From IMG/VR virus record IMGVR_UViG_3300006192_000337, positions 1 to 27,077 of that record: DNA of 27,077 nt; one strand, 5' to 3'. Every line of letters begins with the position of its first letter. The stretch's first letter is position 1. Below the pieces are notes generated by a model. It ran no database searches, had not been told where the DNA came from, and saw only the letters and a program-made list of their open reading frames with translations. Below, piece after piece: positions 3,216 to 21,196 of the stretch. This DNA comes from a virus. The translations under genes and the position numbers were made by a program.

Positions 3216-3800
3216 TCAACTTGGTGCTAAAACATTACGGCACAGTTCAAACATTTGACGAGCATCATCTTCTGTCAGATTGCCTTTGCCAATCGGCGAT
3301 GCGGCAGCAAATGTTGCGAAATCACCAGCGACAACTGCTCTGCGAAGATCAGAACCGCTGATCCCTGGTGTACGATCTCCGGAACTTTGTGCTGTCAGCT
3401 CAACGCCGTGCTGAGCTGCATATGACACCAGACGACTGAACATTTTGTTCTCTTCGCTGCCTTCCTCGAAGTAGTCACCGCCAGCAAAGTAGATGATCCG
3501 CTTGTATCCCTGTGGCAGCAGTTCATCAAGCAGCTTGAACATATTGATTGCTGGCGCTATTTGCAAATCAGGGATAGCCTTTTTGATATACGCGATCTTC
3601 GCATCAACAGGGACAGGGTTCTTCTTGTTATCAACCGACCGTGATGTATAAACCATGTATGGGACATTATTCGCAGTTGCAAACTTTTTGATTGCTTCAA
3701 AGTGAGCAATATGTCCAGACGTGGGCGGGCTGTATCTACCAAAACAGTATACAAACGTATCACTGTTGCTCTCCAATAGGTATTGCTTGAATGTCTTCAC
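3216..3800 (-). CDS. Nucleotidylyltransferase (NMNAT/cytidylyltransferase-like) with head-targeting N-terminus
   Basis: The 194-residue protein has the Rossmann-type nucleotidylyltransferase signature: FGRYSPPTSGHIAHFEAI (the HxGH region, here TSGH) near residue 20, and GISGSDLRRAV near residue 150, the counterpart of ISxTxxR. T4-like marine phages carry similar proteins annotated as NMN adenylyltransferase or cytidylyltransferase; the substrate here is not decided by sequence. The first residues, MKTFKQYLLE, resemble the T4 internal-protein capsid-targeting peptide (MKTYQEFI.E type) and end in LLE-S, close to the gp21 protease site [LI]xE. The protein may therefore be packaged and injected. 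Its first 41 nt overlap the end of a GIY-YIG homing gene, and a remnant of a second copy of its N-terminus lies at 4662-4727. Confidence 0.8.
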   Translation of the reverse strand: MKTFKQYLLESNSDTFVYCFGRYSPPTSGHIAHFEAIKKFATANNVPYMVYTSRSVDNKKNPVPVDAKIAYIKKAIPDLQIAPAINMFKLLDELLPQGYKRIIYFAGGDYFEEGSEENKMFSRLVSYAAQHGVELTAQSSGDRTPGISGSDLRRAVVAGDFATFAAASPIGKGNLTEDDARQMFELCRNVLAPS

Positions 3801-4602
3801 AGGTTTCCTCTAAAAATTGCCACCCCATCTCTCGGGGCGTTTTACCAATATCGTTTTTGCAGAACAACGGGCACGCAGCTGCACACTGTCTATTTATAGG
3901 TTTATCTGCTTGCTTGAGAACATTGCGCAACCCGTTTGCTGTGATAATACTGTAAACTGATACAAAATACTCCGCGCTAGCGAAATCGCCGTATGGTGTG
4001 CGTATTGCTTTCCTATTAGGGTTGTTCATCTGGATTTTTGCTCGTGTTGCAACACCAGGGTGCCGACCTAGATTGTTTTTATTGCCCTTCTTTAAGGTTG
4101 CCAACAGTGCTTTTACTTCTTCGGTATGTGTTTTACCATAGAAAGGATTGTTTACTCCAACTTGTTTCTTGCTTTGTGCCAATATACGATCTTTACGTTT
4201 TTGTCTTTCTTCTTCGCTTATATTCAGCTTCTTGCCATAATTTGGGCTATCTTTACCTTTAGGTCTTGCTACACCTTTATTGTTTGGCGGTCTTTGGTCT
4301 ACACATATGTTGGTTAATATTCCGCCATCATCCAAATCTCGTCTGCCATAATGTTGTATGAGCTGCTTTTCAACATCATACGCCTCTGCTTCTGTTAAAC
4401 CTGTTTTGTAAAATTCAATCCTAGGCGTCAAACCAGCACCAAAAATAGCCTGTATTACAGCATATTTTTTCTTGTTTTCGGTGTTGGTGCGCGTTTCCGT
4501 GAGATGGTGCTTATATCTTATATCCCGTCCCTTCCCAACATAAAAAGGTGTAGGTTGGTCTTGTCTGGTGTCATAATACACATAAACATAATAATCATTC
4601 AT
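3760..4602 (-). CDS. GIY-YIG homing endonuclease with NUMOD3-like region
   Basis: The 280-residue protein starts MNDYYVYVYYD and continues PFYVGKGRDIRYKHHL, the GIY and YIG strands with the conserved basic residues of the GIY-YIG nuclease core. The middle holds SPNYGK and NPFYGKTHTEEVKALL, typical of NUMOD3 DNA-binding repeats. This is the Seg family arrangement of T4. AGGAGA precedes the ATG by 8 nt and lies in the loop of an 8-bp hairpin whose stem includes the start codon. The 3' end overlaps the first 41 nt of the complete nucleotidylyltransferase gene in the same direction. A 21-codon copy of that gene's N-terminus lies just upstream. It therefore appears to have homed into the 5' part of this gene. 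Confidence 0.9.
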   Translation of the reverse strand: MNDYYVYVYYDTRQDQPTPFYVGKGRDIRYKHHLTETRTNTENKKKYAVIQAIFGAGLTPRIEFYKTGLTEAEAYDVEKQLIQHYGRRDLDDGGILTNICVDQRPPNNKGVARPKGKDSPNYGKKLNISEEERQKRKDRILAQSKKQVGVNNPFYGKTHTEEVKALLATLKKGNKNNLGRHPGVATRAKIQMNNPNRKAIRTPYGDFASAEYFVSVYSIITANGLRNVLKQADKPINRQCAAACPLFCKNDIGKTPREMGWQFLEETCEDIQAIPIGEQQ

Positions 4603-5795: not shown

Positions 5796-7052
5796 TTACC
5801 AGTCCTTAGGAGCGTTAAAGTTTTGGCGAGCAAAGTCAAGACGATCAACAATCTTGGCAATCTCGTGCGTCTTGGTATCAGCGATCACCAGACCTTCACC
5901 AGCGGTTCGTGTATATTTATCGCCTTCCTTATAAAACGCCTCAAGTCCTCCAAACCCTTTGATCTTTGATAGCAACGCTGCTTTAATCTCCGTTAGGTGG
6001 TTGAAAAACGCAAACATCTTAGCAAGCTGTGGGCGGAGCTGTGCAACCAGTTGGTTGTAATGTTGTTGTTGAGCAGCAACTTGTTGTTTCTTAGCAGCTG
6101 TTTTGAACTTCTCAATGTCTTTCGCATGCCTTGTGTCAATGAAACCAGCCAACTGGTCTAAGTGATCTTCAATGTGTCCAACTAGTTGGTTCTGACGAAC
6201 TTTTGAGTTCAGGTGTATTTTGATGAATGATGCAAGCTGTGGGTTCTGCTCCATCGCAACAAACAGTGATGGGTCAATCTGCTGCAGCTCTCGTTGAGCA
6301 ACCGCTAGTTTTTGTTTCAACTGCTCAACATCTTGAACGCCGTGTGGCATCTCTGCACTATAATCCTGGATACGATTGGACTTCCACCAAACATCAGGTG
6401 TTTCCTGCAGTTTAGACAGGTCAGGGTTGAATGTTGCATGCATGTCAGCAATCGTGTTGCCTGTGTAAACTGTGTGAAACACAATCCCCATCTTTGCGCG
6501 GCGAACTGCTTGACCTGTCTCACTGTTTGCTTCAACAGCATATAAGATTGTATTCGGCTTGAATGTGATGTATGTTTTGCCGCCAATCGTTTGCTCTTTC
6601 AGATCTCCCGGTGTGAATAGAAAATCACCCTGATAGATTTCCTTCATCCCAAGCGCAGGTAAGTACTTGAGGGCAGCAGTCAGTTTTTCAGCAAGACCTG
6701 GGGAGTTTTCTTCTGCAATCTTACTCGCATTGAGCCGGGTGTATCGCTTACCTGTCGGGCTGAGGGCAGATTTCGTTCCAACGAAGAACTCACCAGCGTT
6801 TTCTTCGCCTGGCGGCAGAGGGCCACATGTGAGAGATGGTGCGCCATCAACCTTGACGTTAACAGCAAGATTTGTGTCTTTACTGCCAGAAACAACAGCG
6901 ATCAGACGGCTGATGAAGTTGATTGCTCGTTGTGCGCCTTGGGGACCTTCGTTAACGATTAGTTCCTCGATGTGCTCAAGGTGTTTCAGTTTTGCTTTTA
7001 CCTCAGGAGAACCATCATCCTCCAGCAGGTAGTATTGTTTGAATGTTATCAT
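5796..7052 (-). CDS. Ligase-superfamily nucleotidyltransferase with head-targeting N-terminus
   Basis: The 418-residue protein has the covalent nucleotidyltransferase motifs of DNA/RNA ligases and capping enzymes in order. These are motif I NVKVDGAPSL (KxDG, about residue 68), a motif III-like EIYQGDFLF, a IIIa-like ILYAVEA, motif IV GEGLVIAD and motif V EIAKIVDR near the C-terminus. About 130 residues of glutamine-rich helix are inserted between IIIa and IV, which is not usual for a ligase. No OB-fold follows motif V, so it may be a minimal RNA-ligase-like enzyme or inactive. Similar phage proteins carry a DUF name. The first residues, MITFKQYYLLEDD, resemble a capsid-targeting peptide with an LLE cut site. 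A late promoter lies 23 nt upstream. Confidence 0.65.
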   Translation of the reverse strand: MITFKQYYLLEDDGSPEVKAKLKHLEHIEELIVNEGPQGAQRAINFISRLIAVVSGSKDTNLAVNVKVDGAPSLTCGPLPPGEENAGEFFVGTKSALSPTGKRYTRLNASKIAEENSPGLAEKLTAALKYLPALGMKEIYQGDFLFTPGDLKEQTIGGKTYITFKPNTILYAVEANSETGQAVRRAKMGIVFHTVYTGNTIADMHATFNPDLSKLQETPDVWWKSNRIQDYSAEMPHGVQDVEQLKQKLAVAQRELQQIDPSLFVAMEQNPQLASFIKIHLNSKVRQNQLVGHIEDHLDQLAGFIDTRHAKDIEKFKTAAKKQQVAAQQQHYNQLVAQLRPQLAKMFAFFNHLTEIKAALLSKIKGFGGLEAFYKEGDKYTRTAGEGLVIADTKTHEIAKIVDRLDFARQNFNAPKDW

Positions 7053-7075: not shown

Positions 7076-7083
7076 TATTTATG
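7076..7083 (-). promoter_or_regulatory. T4-type late promoter, CATAAATA
   Basis: CATAAATA on the minus strand, 23 nt before the ATG at 7052 of the ligase-like gene and after the stop of the PAS gene. Confidence 0.6.
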
Positions 7084-7097
7084 GCAACAGTTGAGGG

Positions 7098-8423
7098 TCA
7101 GCAGTCAATACATCGCTGTATGCAAATAAAGTACGATACTTCCAAACGGTCATCAACAATCGGCAGGATTGATGAGTCAACCGTGATGTCGCGACCCATT
7201 GCGTCACAGTTGACGATCACCCCCTCCCATGATTTACCAGTAAGCATCACTTTCCACATTTGCTCATGCACGTCCGATGTTGTTCTATCCGATTTGATGA
7301 TTGACATCTTTTGACCGATGACATCACGAATATCGGCAAATCTGTACTTGATCATAAACATCTTGTTAGCAAAAATGATCGTTCCCATTCTGTCTGCTAT
7401 CGCTATGATATCTGATGCTGCGTTTAGTGCTTTATGGGCTGCAAGGATGTGCTCACGCTTTTCACGAAGAGATGTTATGTTTCGTGCTGCAACAACGAGA
7501 ATGTCACGATGTTTGGCATCACTGTAAATTGGCGTCTTCAAAACATCAAAATATTGTCGCTGTTCGTTTTTATCAATAACAACTTCTTCTGTGCGTGTGG
7601 TTCTTCTCAGTTTCCACGCTTGCTCATCTGTTGTTTCACATTCAACAAAACTTTCCGCAAAGTACGGAAAATCTTCAGCAAGCTCCATGTTCGTTTTACC
7701 AACATAGTCACGTTCAGACGTAAAACTATACAAATCATGTGCTGCTTTGTTTGCTAAAACCCATTTCCCGTCACCATCTTTAACCTTCACAACGTCCGAA
7801 ATCGAGTTCAGCACCGCAACCATCAGCTTTCGTTCTTGCTCTCTGGCTTTAATTTCGCGCTGGGCAACTGTAACATCTCGCATGATCGCGATAGTTCCCG
7901 GTGGGGTGTCTGTACCATCCGAGAATGAGTTGATTGACATTTCAACCAATACTTCTGAACCATCTTTACGTTTGCAGGTGATCGGTTTGATTTTGTTGAT
8001 GTTGCCATTTTCTGTAAGGTTGAGTTTATCAAACTTTTGAGCTATTTGAAGGGTGTTGGCATCTGCAACTATGATGTTTATGTTTTGTCCTAGCGCTTCT
8101 TCTTTAGAGTACCCGAAAATGATTTCCGCGCCAGTATTCCACTCTTGAATGATGTTATTGTGGTCTGTAATCACAATTCCCTCTGTCATAACATAAAGGA
8201 TTGTGTGCAGCTGCTGTTGTGTTACACGCAGTTTATTTTCCAGCTGGGACGAAATGCTGCTAGCAAGTGCAGAAGTTTCCTTTACAGCACTCTGTAACTC
8301 GTTGAATGTTGTGTTCAACACATCAGCATTATACCAGGAAGGCGTCTTCACCTTCACCTTCTTGCACGGATCCGATTGAGACGCTGAGCGCGTGAACAAG
8401 TTCTTAAACAAGTTCTTAAACAT
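7098..8423 (-). CDS. Triple PAS-domain sensor protein
   Basis: The 441-residue protein has three PAS domains. PAS1 spans about 72-185 (EGIVITDHNNIIQEWN, then AEIIFGYSKEEALGQ, with a PAC-like CKRKDGSEVLVEMSI). PAS2 spans about 200-317 (ISDVVKVKDGDGKWVLANKAA). PAS3 spans about 332-437 (SDIIAIADRMGTIIFANKM, with a degenerate C-terminal half). Short coiled-coil-like linkers join them. There is no kinase, GGDEF, EAL or methyl-accepting output domain, so it can only sense or dimerise and must act through a partner. No membrane segment is evident; the N-terminus repeats FKNLFKNLF and could be amphipathic. It ends the row EAL, HDOD, TM protein, PAS, with only 4 nt between it and the TM gene. Soluble PAS arrays are rare in phages, so acquisition from a bacterium is likely. 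Confidence 0.85.
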   Translation of the reverse strand: MFKNLFKNLFTRSASQSDPCKKVKVKTPSWYNADVLNTTFNELQSAVKETSALASSISSQLENKLRVTQQQLHTILYVMTEGIVITDHNNIIQEWNTGAEIIFGYSKEEALGQNINIIVADANTLQIAQKFDKLNLTENGNINKIKPITCKRKDGSEVLVEMSINSFSDGTDTPPGTIAIMRDVTVAQREIKAREQERKLMVAVLNSISDVVKVKDGDGKWVLANKAAHDLYSFTSERDYVGKTNMELAEDFPYFAESFVECETTDEQAWKLRRTTRTEEVVIDKNEQRQYFDVLKTPIYSDAKHRDILVVAARNITSLREKREHILAAHKALNAASDIIAIADRMGTIIFANKMFMIKYRFADIRDVIGQKMSIIKSDRTTSDVHEQMWKVMLTGKSWEGVIVNCDAMGRDITVDSSILPIVDDRLEVSYFICIQRCIDC

Positions 8424-8427
8424 GGCT

Positions 8428-8709
8428 TTATAACAACCGTCCTTGAATTGCAGCTAGCACAACTTTAATTTCGTTAATCGCTTGCACCATCGTCAGGTTC
8501 CCCTGGTGGTACTTTTCGATGATCTCCAAAATCACTTGTTTCTCCGCTTCTTTAGCGTCAAGTGTTTGTTTCAAGGATTCAGACAGCCTGTTGAGCAACT
8601 GAATGCGATCGTAAACCAAAAAGCCGACAACCAACAACAAGACAGCGATAACTGCTGCAGCACCGCCGTCTGTCATTAGTGTTATCAGCGATTGAATTAC
8701 GCCTTCCAT
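8428..8709 (-). CDS. Small single-TM coiled-coil protein (holin-like/BhlA-like topology)
   Basis: The 93-residue protein has a short N-terminus, one clear membrane helix at about 18-33 (GGAAAVIAVLLLVVGFLVYD) and a charged helical C-terminus rich in Leu, Lys and Glu that suggests a coiled coil. The layout resembles BhlA/UviB-type holin-like proteins, but the sequence is too short and divergent to assign. The endolysin lies 5 kb away, so a lysis role is only one option. Its position between the HDOD and PAS genes allows a role as a membrane scaffold for the signalling proteins. A late promoter lies about 30 nt upstream of its start. Confidence 0.65.
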   Translation of the reverse strand: MEGVIQSLITLMTDGGAAAVIAVLLLVVGFLVYDRIQLLNRLSESLKQTLDAKEAEKQVILEIIEKYHQGNLTMVQAINEIKVVLAAIQGRLL

Positions 8710-8739
8710 ATGATATTCGCTATCTTTGTGTGGACTGCT

Positions 8740-8747
8740 TATTTATG
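8740..8747 (-). promoter_or_regulatory. T4-type late promoter, CATAAATA
   Basis: CATAAATA on the minus strand between the HDOD gene (stop 8760) and the TM-protein gene (start 8709). It should drive the TM protein and PAS genes late in infection. Confidence 0.6.
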
Positions 8748-8759
8748 TTTAGCAGCAGA

Positions 8760-9551
8760 TTATCGAATCAACTTTAGAAATTCTTCTATGCTATTCCTAT
8801 GCACATGGAGCAAGTTTCCTATCTCAACCGCTGTTTGTTGATCAGTGTGACCTCTGTCATGCAGCCTTGCCAATATTGCAACATCTTTATATGTTTTCAC
8901 TGACCGAACCGTGTCACAAACGCCGTCACTAAACGCAGCATCAATGATTGGTTGTGGCATCCCCCACCGTGTTAAAATGCTACGCCCAACTCTAGGGTTA
9001 ACCAGATTGATAACATCGTGTATGTACATTCGCTCAATTTGGTCAGCAGAATAGTTTGCGTCAATGTATGCTAATGCTGCCATTTTACCAATATTGCTCA
9101 TCAAACCAACAAGAACAGCAACATCCGTTTTCAACTTAGCGTGTTCTTTACTGATTGCGCCACAAATGCCGGCAATCAGCGATGTTGACCTTGTCACTTC
9201 GTTCATCACCTCTTCTAACCTAGAATGTTGTGTGTTAAACGCGTTTTTGAGCAAGATACACATTGCTAGATTTCGCACTATTGACATTCCAAGCCTTGAT
9301 ATGCCGTCATTGAGTGAAGAGCACGGTTGTAAACACAACAAAGCACTGTTGGCAACTTGCATTATCTTAGCCGCAAGAACGGGCTCTGTCCGTATTACTT
9401 GCGCAACATCAAATATGCTCGTAGTGTCTTGAGCAAGAACATTGTTTATTTCTGCTATTACACGAGGATCTGTAGCAACATGCAGGCAGCCGTTTTGCGA
9501 CGCTGCAATGATATCGTCAACAGCGCGTTGTGTGATGTCGTTACCCAGCAT
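8760..9551 (-). CDS. HDOD-domain signalling protein
   Basis: The 263-residue protein is essentially one HDOD domain. It shows DPRVIAEINNVLAQD, then FDVAQVIRTEPVLAAKIMQVANSA, then DGISRLGMSIVRNLAMCILL, the order of helices conserved in the family. The place where true HD hydrolases have HDIGK reads LVGLMSNIGKMA, so it is non-catalytic, as is normal for HDOD. In bacteria HDOD domains occur in regulators of motility, stress and c-di-GMP, often fused behind an EAL domain (YuxH/CdgJ type). Here it starts 11 nt inside the end of the EAL gene, with GAGGG at 8-nt spacing, which looks like a split version of that fusion. Phage HDOD proteins are uncommon. Confidence 0.87.
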   Translation of the reverse strand: MLGNDITQRAVDDIIAASQNGCLHVATDPRVIAEINNVLAQDTTSIFDVAQVIRTEPVLAAKIMQVANSALLCLQPCSSLNDGISRLGMSIVRNLAMCILLKNAFNTQHSRLEEVMNEVTRSTSLIAGICGAISKEHAKLKTDVAVLVGLMSNIGKMAALAYIDANYSADQIERMYIHDVINLVNPRVGRSILTRWGMPQPIIDAAFSDGVCDTVRSVKTYKDVAILARLHDRGHTDQQTAVEIGNLLHVHRNSIEEFLKLIR

Positions 9552-10584
9552 GCTTGTGCCCTCTTGTTGTTTTTAACCACGCGCAGGCTTGGTCAAAAGT
9601 CATTGGTGGAGCGACAGCATACCCTTGAACAAAATCACACCCAACTTCCCGCGCTTTGTTTAGAGCAGCGCCTGTTTCTATATGCTTTGCAGTGACAAAC
9701 GTCCCAGCACTGTGTGCTGTATAAACGATTGCTTGAACTATTTCTGCATTCTGTTGATTGATGTCCATCCGTTTGGTCAGCGAACTGTCCACCTTGACAC
9801 CATCAATCAGGAAGTTTTTAAAGTGCATGAACGACGCTACTGACATTCCGTAGTCATCCAAACATATCTTAACATCTATTGCGTCCAGCCCAGCTATTAC
9901 TTTCAAAGCAGAAGGTAGATCCCCGCGTAGCGTAGACTGAGAGATTTCAACAGTCAGCCTGTCAACAGGCATTCTGTGATTCAACAACGTTTTTGTGATT
10001 GTTGAAATAACGGACCCGTCAGTCAAATCTTCAGCAACAAGCTTGATTGACATCTGAAAATCATATCCTTCTTGTTTAAACTTATCGTAAAACTCTGCTG
10101 CGCGATCAACAATGTGAGCAGTTAACTTCTTAATCGCTTCAGGATTCGCGTCTTCGATTGTAGTTGTGTGGCTAAACGGCGTAACAACACCGTATATTGG
10201 GTGGTGCAAGCGTGTTAGTAACTCAAACCCTGTAACCGTGTTGGTTGACAGTTTGTACACCGGCTGTAGTATCACTTCAATTTTATCGTTTGCAATCGCT
10301 TCAACAATGTCATCTGGTGTAATAATTACCTTGCGTTCCGACAGACGGAACCTGTGAATTATGACAAACGAGACATAAGCAAGTGCAAGAATCAACAAAT
10401 CTGCAGCTTTAATGGTGCCAATATCTTTGTCCAATCCGACTTGCGACAAGTAGTATTGAACTTCGCCAGTGTGTGCTGCTACCAAAAGCAGCAAAACCGA
10501 TAGGCCGTAATATACAGCCTTGATCTTTTTTGGGATTCCTGTCTTAAACAGGATGTGTGTGAGTAGTGTTTTCAATTTCAGCAT
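9541..10584 (-). CDS. Membrane-anchored EAL-domain protein, degenerate active site
   Basis: Two N-terminal membrane helices (about 22-38 and 60-77) precede an EAL domain at 92-340. Recognisable motifs are LQPVYKLSTNTVTGFELLTRL (E121 of the EAL motif), TVEIS (E213), CLDDYG (D243, D244), GVKVD (K264) and FVQGYAVAPPM (Q320). Two metal or general catalytic positions differ. The usual Asn in SVNLS is Lys181 (MSIKLV), and the Glu of AEGVE is Lys300 (TAKHIE). EAL domains hydrolyse c-di-GMP; with these changes this one more likely binds c-di-GMP or proteins without cleaving. The signalling face is cytoplasmic. It overlaps the HDOD gene by 11 nt and is probably translated with it. No strong promoter or Shine-Dalgarno is visible directly upstream. 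Confidence 0.88.
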   Translation of the reverse strand: MLKLKTLLTHILFKTGIPKKIKAVYYGLSVLLLLVAAHTGEVQYYLSQVGLDKDIGTIKAADLLILALAYVSFVIIHRFRLSERKVIITPDDIVEAIANDKIEVILQPVYKLSTNTVTGFELLTRLHHPIYGVVTPFSHTTTIEDANPEAIKKLTAHIVDRAAEFYDKFKQEGYDFQMSIKLVAEDLTDGSVISTITKTLLNHRMPVDRLTVEISQSTLRGDLPSALKVIAGLDAIDVKICLDDYGMSVASFMHFKNFLIDGVKVDSSLTKRMDINQQNAEIVQAIVYTAHSAGTFVTAKHIETGAALNKAREVGCDFVQGYAVAPPMTFDQACAWLKTTRGHKHAG

Positions 10585-10680: not shown

Positions 10681-11745
10681 TCACCGTTGTTCACGCTTTG
10701 CGTTGAACAAGTCTTTCAGTGTTGGCTTCGCACCGCCTGAATAAATGAACTTGATAACAGAAGGCGGAATGTTGTTTGTGATCGGGCTCATGTAACTTGA
10801 CAGTTTGATGTTCGCTGCTTTAACGCCAGCAACCGTTCCCTTAGACAGCTCATCGCGCAACACCTTCATTGCGTCTGCTGCCGTCAATGCAAATGACGCA
10901 CGATGCTCATCCGATTTCTCAAAGTTTTTCGCTTCTTTCTCGTACTTAGCGATTGCTGTTCCGAGGTCAGACATCACTTCTTGAGGGACACGAACTTTGC
11001 CTTCATGGTCACCCGCGTTGTCACTTTCATCCTTGCCTGTTACAGCAGGATCTTTGATCTTCAGTGGTTCAACCTTGATGTTCGATGTAGCAGCAGTTGT
11101 CTTGTTTTCTGATGGCTGTGCATCGCCTTCTGGACGCTTTGGCATCGAGAACGCTTCACCGACGGTGCGACGGAGAGATGACATTGGAGCCATTGATGCC
11201 ATGCCAAGATTGCGGCCTGCACCAGGAACAGCGTTCGGATCAAAATCGTCCTGCTGCTCGCCATCAAGACCGAGATCAATGTCGTCAGCGCTGTCAACTT
11301 CCATACCAGAATCGGTGTCCATGTTCATTTCACCGTCCATCTCGCTATCCATTTCGCCATCACAAGTGCAAGGCTCATGCTCACAATCTGGGCACAGGTC
11401 ATCGTTTTGCTCAGCGGCTTGCATTTCTGGCTCTTCACCATCTTGCTCTGCACCCATCTCAACAGAAGTATCTCCGTCCGTCTTGCTGCCGAGTTCCTCT
11501 GGAGGCATCTCGTCTTCAGGTCGCTCAATCGGTGCAAACGACAGGTTCATTTCTTCTAGCGACACAATGCTGGCATGGAACGCACCATTCTTGTACAGTT
11601 TCTTTGCAGCGCGGTCGGCAAGTTCAGCAGTTGGGTAGACGGTTGCTTCACCTAGTGGCAACCATGTTGGTCTGTCGTATGCGCTAGAGGCTGTAAAAAA
11701 CTCCTTGCGCATTTTGTTTTTGGCGATTAAGAATCCGCTTTTCAT
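10681..11745 (-). CDS. Acidic CxxC-containing phage protein, probably structural
   Basis: The 354-residue protein has a basic N-terminus (MKSGFLIAKNKMRKEF), a short ordered part to about residue 70, and a long Asp/Glu/Met-rich low-complexity stretch to about 170. This stretch includes DLCPDCEHEPCTCDG, a possible small zinc site. A more regular C-terminal domain ends SPITNNIPPSVIKFIYSGG and then KPTLKDLF. I do not recognise the family. The acidity and the late promoter 36 nt upstream suggest a virion or assembly component. AAGGA stands 7 nt before the start. A long frame antisense to the acidic repeat is a codon-bias shadow. Confidence 0.65.
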   Translation of the reverse strand: MKSGFLIAKNKMRKEFFTASSAYDRPTWLPLGEATVYPTAELADRAAKKLYKNGAFHASIVSLEEMNLSFAPIERPEDEMPPEELGSKTDGDTSVEMGAEQDGEEPEMQAAEQNDDLCPDCEHEPCTCDGEMDSEMDGEMNMDTDSGMEVDSADDIDLGLDGEQQDDFDPNAVPGAGRNLGMASMAPMSSLRRTVGEAFSMPKRPEGDAQPSENKTTAATSNIKVEPLKIKDPAVTGKDESDNAGDHEGKVRVPQEVMSDLGTAIAKYEKEAKNFEKSDEHRASFALTAADAMKVLRDELSKGTVAGVKAANIKLSSYMSPITNNIPPSVIKFIYSGGAKPTLKDLFNAKREQR

Positions 11746-11781: not shown

Positions 11782-11789
11782 TATTTATG
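11782..11789 (-). promoter_or_regulatory. T4-type late promoter, CATAAATA
   Basis: CATAAATA followed by AGC on the minus strand, 36 nt before the ATG of the acidic protein gene. Its flanks are nearly identical to the site at 8740. Confidence 0.65.
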
Positions 11790-13633: not shown

Positions 13634-14497
13634 TCAGCCAAACATTGCCCTAAACGTTCTAGGGCCTGCAATACCATCTGCGGTCAGGTTGTTCGCACGT
13701 TGCCATTCTCTCAGCGCTCTGTCTGTTATAGGCCCAAACACGCCGTCTGCATTGACGCCAAGAACACGTTGCATTTCAGCAACATCTTGACCTCTCGCTC
13801 CTTGTCTAAGAACTCGTCTTGTTTGTTGAGTCGTTGGTTCTGTTGGGGGAACGATATCTGGAGTTAGTGCTGGAGCAGCCGACATATCAACAGACAGTAT
13901 CTGCTGTGCTGCTGTATATAGTTCCATGCGGTGGGCAAGGCCGTTGAAACCACCGTTGATACGCCTTGTTAGCGTTCTCATATCACGAGCGTCAGCAAAC
14001 ACGTTCAAGTTGTTAACTTCCCAAAACCACCCTGCACTGACGACAGCACCCTCAATAGACATTAAATAATCAGGGTCAGCAATAAGGTCTCGTCCGAGAT
14101 ATCTGCCGCATGCAGTGTAGTTGTTTCTCCCTGTCAGTTGGATGTATCCACGACCGCGGAATTTCCACCCGTCTTGTGAAGCTTCATCTCCGTTGCCCAT
14201 CCTATTAGCATACACACGACTCGCAATTCTAATTGGTTGACGTGCATATTGTTGAGCGATGGCGTCGGTTGGAAAATGGCGAGCAAAAATCTTCCTGAGA
14301 CCGTTTGCTGAATAGTTTAAATTCTCTACACGATGAACAAAATAGCCCGATTCATGTCCGAGTTGAGCAAGGAATGCGCACACGCGGTCATGGGTATTGA
14401 TGTTGTAGCGCGGCATCTGTTCGTTTAGAGCGTTGACGATTGCTTGTGCTTCTTTTACAGTGCCAAATATTTGTGTGAATTGTTGTAGTGTTAGCAT
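13634..14497 (-). CDS. Endolysin: GH19 lysozyme/chitinase-like domain plus peptidoglycan-binding domain
   Basis: The enzyme should cut peptidoglycan glycan strands at lysis. Residues about 20-200 are a GH19 domain: RVCAFLAQLGHESGYF with the catalytic Glu in the HES segment, GWKFRGRGYIQLTGRNNY, and SAGWFWEVNNLN. A proline-rich linker follows, then a PG_binding_1 domain over the last 65 residues (LRQGARGQDVAEMQRVLGV, then DGVFGPITDRALREWQ). No signal peptide is seen, so a holin is expected; the 93-residue TM protein is the only candidate in view. GGAGGG precedes the ATG, and two overlapping late promoters lie 27 nt upstream, fitting late lysis timing. It is the first gene of the leftward block. 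Confidence 0.92.
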   Translation of the reverse strand: MLTLQQFTQIFGTVKEAQAIVNALNEQMPRYNINTHDRVCAFLAQLGHESGYFVHRVENLNYSANGLRKIFARHFPTDAIAQQYARQPIRIASRVYANRMGNGDEASQDGWKFRGRGYIQLTGRNNYTACGRYLGRDLIADPDYLMSIEGAVVSAGWFWEVNNLNVFADARDMRTLTRRINGGFNGLAHRMELYTAAQQILSVDMSAAPALTPDIVPPTEPTTQQTRRVLRQGARGQDVAEMQRVLGVNADGVFGPITDRALREWQRANNLTADGIAGPRTFRAMFG

Positions 14498-19926: not shown

Positions 19927-20384
19927 TTCATCTTCGCTTGTTGGATCTCAAGAGTGCGGCGGTATACAACGAAATAGTTTCGGTCTTGGTATACTTCCCA
20001 CTCTAATTTTTTGGCGAGTTTCTTTGTTAGTTTCTCAAACACTTCACGTCGCCGCGGCGACGATGAGTGCATATAGACAAAATGGAGACGCTGATCTTTC
20101 GCTTTTGACGCAATTGCCGAGACGACCTTATCCATCACATCGTCGACGCCAGCAAACGATTGACGGTTTTGTTTCAGCGTCAATTCAACAAACCGCCCAC
20201 TCTCCATGTCATCCTGCTTGATGATAACGCGCGTAATCCACCCTGCAATGTAGTCAGCCATAGGCCTATTACCGCGGATCACGAGTTCATAGGTGTGATC
20301 TTCGGTCTTGATTGTGGCAGTCGACTTTGCATCTGTTGATGCTGGATTCCACTTTACGGTAGGTGAGACTTCGAATAGTTTCAT
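19923..20384 (-). CDS. Unknown minus-strand protein, late
   Basis: A 153-residue basic protein, beginning MKLFEVSPTVKW, with alternating strands and helices (YELVIRGNRPMADYIAGWI, then LHFVYMHSSSPRRREVF, then LEWEVYQDRNYFVVYRR). No family is recognised. It is the only leftward gene inside the rightward early block and overlaps the acb1 stop convergently. A perfect TATAAATA ends 5 nt before its ATG, which puts the predicted transcription start on or next to the start codon, with no room for a Shine-Dalgarno. Confidence 0.7.
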   Translation of the reverse strand: MKLFEVSPTVKWNPASTDAKSTATIKTEDHTYELVIRGNRPMADYIAGWITRVIIKQDDMESGRFVELTLKQNRQSFAGVDDVMDKVVSAIASKAKDQRLHFVYMHSSSPRRREVFEKLTKKLAKKLEWEVYQDRNYFVVYRRTLEIQQAKMN

Positions 20385-20389
20385 ACATC

Positions 20390-20397
20390 TATTTATA
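20390..20397 (-). promoter_or_regulatory. T4-type late promoter, perfect TATAAATA
   Basis: TATAAATA on the minus strand, followed by GATGT and the ATG at 20384. The spacing implies a leaderless or nearly leaderless transcript. Confidence 0.65.
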
Positions 20398-20476
20398 TCC
20401 CCCGCATTTGACCCTCCTTTCCCTGTTATTTTGCCGCGTAAATAAAATCGACTGTGTCACAAGGAGAGTCAATCAT

Positions 20477-21196
20477 ATGAAAAACTTTACATACGCTTAC
20501 AAACCCAGAGCCGCTCGCGACGATGACGATGGTGACGCTCCGTCTTGGCCTATTGCAGGACTACCGAGAAAGAAGCCGTACCAACACTACGAGCACACAC
20601 ACACAGCACAACATATTCATTTTTACCTCAGCGGGGATGTTGGCGCACCAGAAGAATACACAGACATGATCCACAGGATCTATGCTGCAACAGAGAACGA
20701 CGTTGTGTTTATCCACCTGAACACTCCAGGTGGTCGTCTTGACACTGGCGTTCAGTTAATCAACGCTATGCAAAACAGCGATGCACGGATCGTCACGATC
20801 CTTGAATCGGAAGCACATTCTCTTGGCACATTGATCTTCCTTGCCGGGGACGAACTTGTTGTCAATGATCACTGCATGATTATGTTCCACAACTTCAAGG
20901 GTGGTGTGGTCGGTAAAGGTCACGAACAGTTGGCTCAGTTGGATGCAACAATCAAGTGGTTCACAGAACTTGCTCGCAAACTGTATATCCCATTCCTCTC
21001 AGAGGCCGAATTTGAGCGTATCATCAAGGGCGAAGACCTGTGGATGCACAGCGCTGAGATCCGTCAACGGATTGAGAACATGATTGAGATCTACGCCAAA
21101 GAAGCAGAAGCAGCCGCAAAGGCTGCAGAAAATGGCGAGAGCGAGATTACTGAAGAGCAGCCTGTCAAGCGCCACCTGAAAAAAACAGCCAGTTGA
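20477..21196 (+). CDS. ClpP-type serine protease
   Basis: The 239-residue protein from ATG 20477 (AAGGAGAG 8 nt upstream) contains HIHFYLSGDVGAPEEY, VVFIHLNTPGGRLDTGVQL, the nucleophile segment ESEAHSLGTLIFLAGD with Ser, and MIMFHNFKGG with His. These follow the ClpP/SppA (S14/S49) fold in order. The C-terminus is a Glu/Ala-rich charged tail. Clp-like proteases occur in large T4-like phages; whether it acts in head maturation or host takeover is not shown. The frame is open from 20363 but the upstream 38 codons are not coding. Confidence 0.85.
   Translation: MKNFTYAYKPRAARDDDDGDAPSWPIAGLPRKKPYQHYEHTHTAQHIHFYLSGDVGAPEEYTDMIHRIYAATENDVVFIHLNTPGGRLDTGVQLINAMQNSDARIVTILESEAHSLGTLIFLAGDELVVNDHCMIMFHNFKGGVVGKGHEQLAQLDATIKWFTELARKLYIPFLSEAEFERIIKGEDLWMHSAEIRQRIENMIEIYAKEAEAAAKAAENGESEITEEQPVKRHLKKTAS

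Follow-up and report, generated by a model that had tools for sequence, protein, structure and literature searches.

Four adjacent genes in the IMG/VR virus record IMGVR_UViG_3300006192_000337 (27,077 bases, the whole of which was analysed and is called the window here) encode an EAL-domain protein, an HDOD-domain protein, a small protein with a single transmembrane (TM) segment and a protein with three PAS domains. We find that this locus consists of two neighbouring units, EAL+HDOD and TM+PAS, divided by a late promoter, and that phages conserve TM+PAS as a two-gene module, independent of EAL and HDOD. The initial annotation of this DNA had described the four open reading frames (ORFs) as bacterial-type signalling parts in a phage, and had suggested that they share a function. 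All four are present where it had placed them, all on the minus strand and with strong domain matches (Table 1). The shared function was not borne out, as relatives keep TM+PAS without EAL or HDOD and the late promoter divides the group. In a phage, genes of signalling type can lie side by side without belonging to one pathway.

A conserved pair of TM and PAS genes

Searches seeded with the TM protein returned homologues on viral contigs L003-L005, L010-L014, L017, L028, L038-L041 and L046, as well as in the cultured jumbo phages Phosso (a Sinorhizobium phage) and Atu_ph07 (an Agrobacterium phage). With near-identical contigs merged, there are 14 non-redundant loci including the window (13 besides it), and in all 14 the TM gene is followed by a PAS-type ORF, at an offset of -4 to +27 bp. 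The gene after TM is annotated 'PAS domain S-box protein' in Phosso and 'multi-sensor signal transduction histidine' in Atu_ph07. PAS content varies from one weak-scoring domain in the metagenomic jumbo group to two in most T4-like contigs and three in the window; as L017, the scanned member of the one-PAS type, falls below the Pfam cutoff, that type was assigned from its position and from how it aligns to the window protein. Conversely, with the PAS protein as the query six contigs were recovered, and TM is present on every one of them. Furthermore, TM and PAS similarities are correlated (Mantel r=0.81, 0/5000 permutations), a correlation to which common phage ancestry contributes.

Neither EAL nor HDOD was found by profile search in 14 TM+PAS records, which include the complete genomes of Phosso (469 kb) and Atu_ph07 (490 kb). 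Because most records are fragments, this absence weighs most for these two phages and for the contigs of 345-389 kb. The initial annotation had recommended a search for the four-gene neighbourhood in related phages, and had held that separate carriage of the genes would refute its proposal; TM+PAS does occur there apart from EAL and HDOD. No TM relatives were found in bacterial genomes in two scans with the single pattern [VI]QA[IL]NEIK, which divergent forms could escape. An earlier description of the pair was not found in the open-access literature either, which is weak evidence of novelty because only open-access papers were covered.

A late promoter divides the locus

The motif YATAAATA, the core of T4-type late promoters, is enriched in the window, with 8 sites against 1.0 expected and 0/100 shuffles reaching 8. 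One of these sites, with the core CATAAATA, lies 30 bp before the TM start, and therefore TM+PAS owns a late promoter. The same core occurs no more than 70 bp upstream of TM in 4/14 lineages, where 0.08 would be expected, and with a putative late promoter in several lineages TM+PAS is best read as late-expressed. Late sites at 8740 and 7076 had initially been thought to surround the four genes, but the former is inside the group and the latter precedes the next gene. For EAL+HDOD, the site at 11782-11789 is a candidate promoter, from which the two genes would be transcribed by read-through.

Table 1. Positions of the four genes, their neighbours and the late promoter cores in the window
Feature	Position	Strand	Description
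EAL gene	9541-10584	-	347 aa; Pfam EAL, E=4e-47; membrane-anchored, degenerate
HDOD gene	8760-9551	-	263 aa; HDOD, E=4e-27; shares 11 bp with EAL gene
TM gene	8428-8709	-	93 aa; single TM segment; first of TM+PAS pair
PAS gene	7098-8423	-	441 aa; three Pfam PAS stretches; begins 4 bp past TM
DUF6267 gene	5796-7052		next gene, downstream of TM+PAS
ORF	10681-11745		upstream of EAL+HDOD
Late promoter core, T4-type	8740-8747	-	motif search; between HDOD and TM
Late promoter core	11782-11789	-	motif search; upstream of ORF 10681-11745
Late promoter core of DUF6267 gene	7076-7083	-	motif search; downstream limit of TM+PAS

Properties of the TM and PAS proteins

In line with the initial annotation, residues 15-33 form the sole hydrophobic segment of the TM protein, which is predicted to reside in the inner membrane with its N-terminus out and its C-terminus in. 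Its AlphaFold2 model is all-helical (predicted local distance difference test score, pLDDT, of 75), the long helix being predicted as cytosolic, and the C-terminus (Y..G ... NEIK) is the best conserved part among relatives. The PAS protein begins with a coiled-coil-like helix, which is followed by the three PAS domains; no output domain was found, which agrees with its original description. PAS2 and PAS3 are well modelled by AlphaFold2 and PAS1 poorly, and the models of the two proteins are uninformative on a TM-PAS interface.

PAS1 is FixL-like, with an Ile aligned with the proximal haem-binding His of FixL, and haem sensing by PAS1 was rejected on account of this Ile. PAS3 is nearest, in sequence and in fold, to the flavin adenine dinucleotide (FAD)-PAS domains of MmoS and NifL. 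The PAS protein may take a flavin or redox input, which is unproven because the matching PAS3 segment is poorly conserved among relatives. By sequence and structure matches, the phage protein shares the PAS fold of the sensors FixL, DosP, MmoS and NifL; it differs from them in lacking an output domain, whether a kinase, an EAL or another, and would be anchored via a separate TM protein.

The EAL and HDOD genes as an accessory pair

An overlap of the HDOD and EAL genes had been noted originally, and the two do share 11 bp. The EAL protein had been assigned two TM helices; by a simple hydropathy threshold residues 58-76 alone qualify, and the second helix is marginal. In an alignment with MorA, the ExLxR motif (ELLTR vs EALLR), the DD metal pair (DDYG vs DDFG) and the Lys and Gln positions are retained; the metal-ligand Asn is replaced by Lys (SIKL vs SVNL), the second Glu of ELTE by Gln, and the catalytic base, the first Glu of AEGVE, by Lys (AKHIE). 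This Asn coordinates metal M1 (PMC5301497), EAL domains without the EGVE base have been put in an inactive class (PMC12900916), and an Ala mutant of the EGVE base of TBD1265 lost all activity, as cited in a passage of PMC12943098. As the catalytic-base Glu and the M1 Asn are both Lys in the window protein, hydrolysis of cyclic di-GMP (c-di-GMP) is unlikely, which goes against the action on c-di-GMP first suggested for this locus; c-di-GMP binding or a scaffold role is possible at most.

The HDOD domain (PF08668) scores 95.5 bits against a curated cutoff of 22.9. No relatives of the EAL+HDOD pair were found in the other phages searched, and the best explanation is that it is a lineage-specific accessory pair, outside the TM+PAS module. 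Bacterial EAL-HDOD proteins of the YuxH type have the same two domains in the same order, but in one polypeptide, whereas in the window they are encoded by two overlapping ORFs, and the EAL protein carries a membrane anchor. The pair could be seen as a split and anchored form of this architecture, that is, a membrane-tethered c-di-GMP-binding effector that would read host c-di-GMP. Nucleotide binding may survive with the retained ExLxR, DD, Lys and Gln residues, and the shared 11 bp also favour such an effector; its want of relatives among those phages counts against it. We regard it as conceivable rather than probable. It concerns EAL+HDOD only, and is compatible with every explanation considered below for TM+PAS.

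An HDOD protein is also encoded in the 258-kb Phage NCTB (L018:8944-9792, E=2e-31), where it stands alone, with no EAL found by profile search; its neighbours are neither TM nor PAS, which ruled it out as a linked homologue. EAL matches in the phage collection were mostly to unannotated metagenome contigs or to bacterial-looking records. The latter gave EAL/GGDEF matches in 'phage' records of up to 691 kb, such as CAKLQH/CAKLQF ('Acinetobacter phage MD-2021a') and AGRM01/AFYI01 (Salmonella enterica). Because bacterial contigs appear to be filed as phage, such matches overstate phage carriage of EAL genes.

A possible role of TM+PAS in lysis timing

Our preferred reading, which we put forward tentatively from sequence comparisons, is that TM+PAS may be a late split sensor, made up of a membrane anchor and a cytosolic PAS protein, that regulates lysis timing. 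The conserved C-terminal helix of TM would bind the N-terminal helix of the PAS protein; the latter would read a cytosolic signal and alter the state or oligomerisation of its membrane partner; and the altered TM protein, acting as a holin, an antiholin or a holin partner, would set the time of lysis, with PAS as the gate. Lysis timing was among the roles initially suggested for all four genes, and it fits best for TM+PAS alone and not for the group as a whole. The size and predicted topology of TM are compatible with a small holin or antiholin. In L046, TM and PAS come first in a lysis operon of mostly overlapping genes. They are followed by phrog_3342 and a small hydrophobic ORF, then by genes for a spanin (Rz-like) and a lipoprotein (Rz1-like), and last by an endolysin gene, which is a strong match (phrog_7, E=3e-52). 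Furthermore, tail-fibre-type genes lie upstream of TM+PAS in four other lineages (L011, L013, L038/L039 and L040), and the T4 holin gene t is likewise placed after tail-fibre genes.

Several observations weigh against a role in lysis. The arrangement in L046 is seen in only 1/14 loci, its spanin matches are weak (E=4e-4 and 0.006) though consistent with gene order, and the other small hydrophobic ORF in the run could itself be the holin. The TM protein matches no holin family, and its comparison with the BhlA profile (hhalign) gave a probability of 13.5% over 20 TM columns. In addition, TM+PAS and the detected lysozyme gene are ~57-69 kb apart in Phosso and Atu_ph07, and the Atu_ph07 pair (coding sequences, CDS, 48-49) falls within CDS 31-76, a region rich in virion proteins. 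The description of Atu_ph07 counted 40 TM proteins and left the lysis mechanism open (PMC6102473).

The BhlA/UviB single-TM holins (PF10960) resemble the TM protein in size and in having an N-terminal TM segment followed by a charged helix. Unlike TM, however, they have no PAS partner and adjoin an amidase in Bacillus and Paenibacillus phages. No match to PF10960 was found in the window and the profile comparison is insignificant, so that TM as a BhlA holin is unsupported. If a role in lysis holds, the closest functional likeness would be to T4 lysis inhibition by the holin T and the antiholin RI, in which a small membrane protein is gated by a condition-sensing partner; both systems would consist of late genes, and in four lineages TM+PAS follows tail-fibre genes as gene t does. 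However, RI is periplasmic, whereas the sensor in TM+PAS would be a cytosolic PAS protein, and no sequence relation was found between the two systems. Lysis inhibition has also been reported in ICP1 and N4.

The wider proposal, that large T4-like and jumbo phages have in common an undescribed PAS/membrane split sensor through which lysis is gated by a signal inside the cell, be it redox state, a flavin or some other ligand, is more doubtful still. If true, it would mean a cytosolic control of the lysis clock, separate from T4 lysis inhibition. Little is known of how large virulent phages choose their lysis time beyond a few well-studied examples, and TM+PAS, present in two cultured jumbo phages, is a specific candidate for a sensor of cell state made by the phage, and one that can be deleted.

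Alternative explanations for TM+PAS

The pair might instead be a late membrane-anchored interference device with no part in lysis, one that pairs with host PAS sensors or alters the envelope (in superinfection exclusion or host signalling). PAS domains commonly dimerise, and a PAS protein without an output domain, at loci that are mostly distant from identified lysis genes, would suit such a device; one locus, however, is a lysis operon, and we consider this explanation unlikely. A role in host take-over is made less likely by the late promoters in several lineages. A part in the virion or its morphogenesis, for example as a membrane-associated assembly factor or a particle-carried protein, would accord with the position of the pairs among late structural genes in T4-like contigs, and with that of the Atu_ph07 pair in the CDS 31-76 cluster, 29 proteins of which have been found in virions (PMC6102473). 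Belonging to this cluster does not itself place CDS 48-49 in virions, however, and a membrane helix and a varying number of PAS domains are ill-suited to a structural part, which makes such a role distinctly improbable.

The four genes of the window are adjacent, on the same strand and all of signalling type, as would be expected of one circuit leading from ligand sensing to c-di-GMP. Against this stand the 14 records (two of them complete) with TM+PAS and neither EAL nor HDOD, the late promoter that divides the group and the loss of the catalytic base from EAL, and a single circuit is very unlikely indeed.

Other genes near TM+PAS

A phrog_3342 protein flanks TM+PAS in three lineages (L010:378-620, L013:5603-5908 and L046:5490-5696). 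It was rejected as a lysis marker, since elsewhere it mostly neighbours tail-fibre genes, although it adjoins a pinholin in Caulobacter phage Percy. Four metagenomic jumbo contigs share a conserved gene set that is divergent from TM+PAS (L004:3592-4970 and 7413-7925, L005:5773-7748, L017:4541-5994 and L028:1390-3737). It comprises a cpYpsA/SLOG protein (PF12694, E=3e-19 in L004), an HD phosphohydrolase-like protein and, in L004 and L028, a bactofilin (PF04519; E=6e-20 and E=5e-16, respectively), a phage-encoded one adjoining nucleotide-signalling genes. Downstream of TM+PAS, on the opposite strand, lies a TROVE-domain (Ro60-like) protein in L017 (7801-9351; PF05731, E=3e-25), with similar proteins at L005:9089-11447 and L028:4934-6556, judged by eye from the sequence.

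Gene content of the window

All four genes are also present on a second contig, with 99.95% identity across 10,318 bp, where EAL is truncated by the contig end; a DNA-level search of the window against the phage collection gave no match. A defence system at the locus was rejected, with one marginal match only (E=0.0097). Among the T4-like genes of the window are DUF6267/phrog_455, PhoH, thymidylate synthase, DNA ligase and topoisomerase II, together with a GH19-type endolysin (13634-14497) that has a C-terminal peptidoglycan-binding domain. A ClpP-like ATP-dependent protease family protein is encoded at 20363-21196 (phrog_1827, E=2e-57), and two homing-endonuclease-like genes (phrog_314) lie at 1539-2381 and 3760-4602, the first of which is preceded by a late site, TATAAATA.

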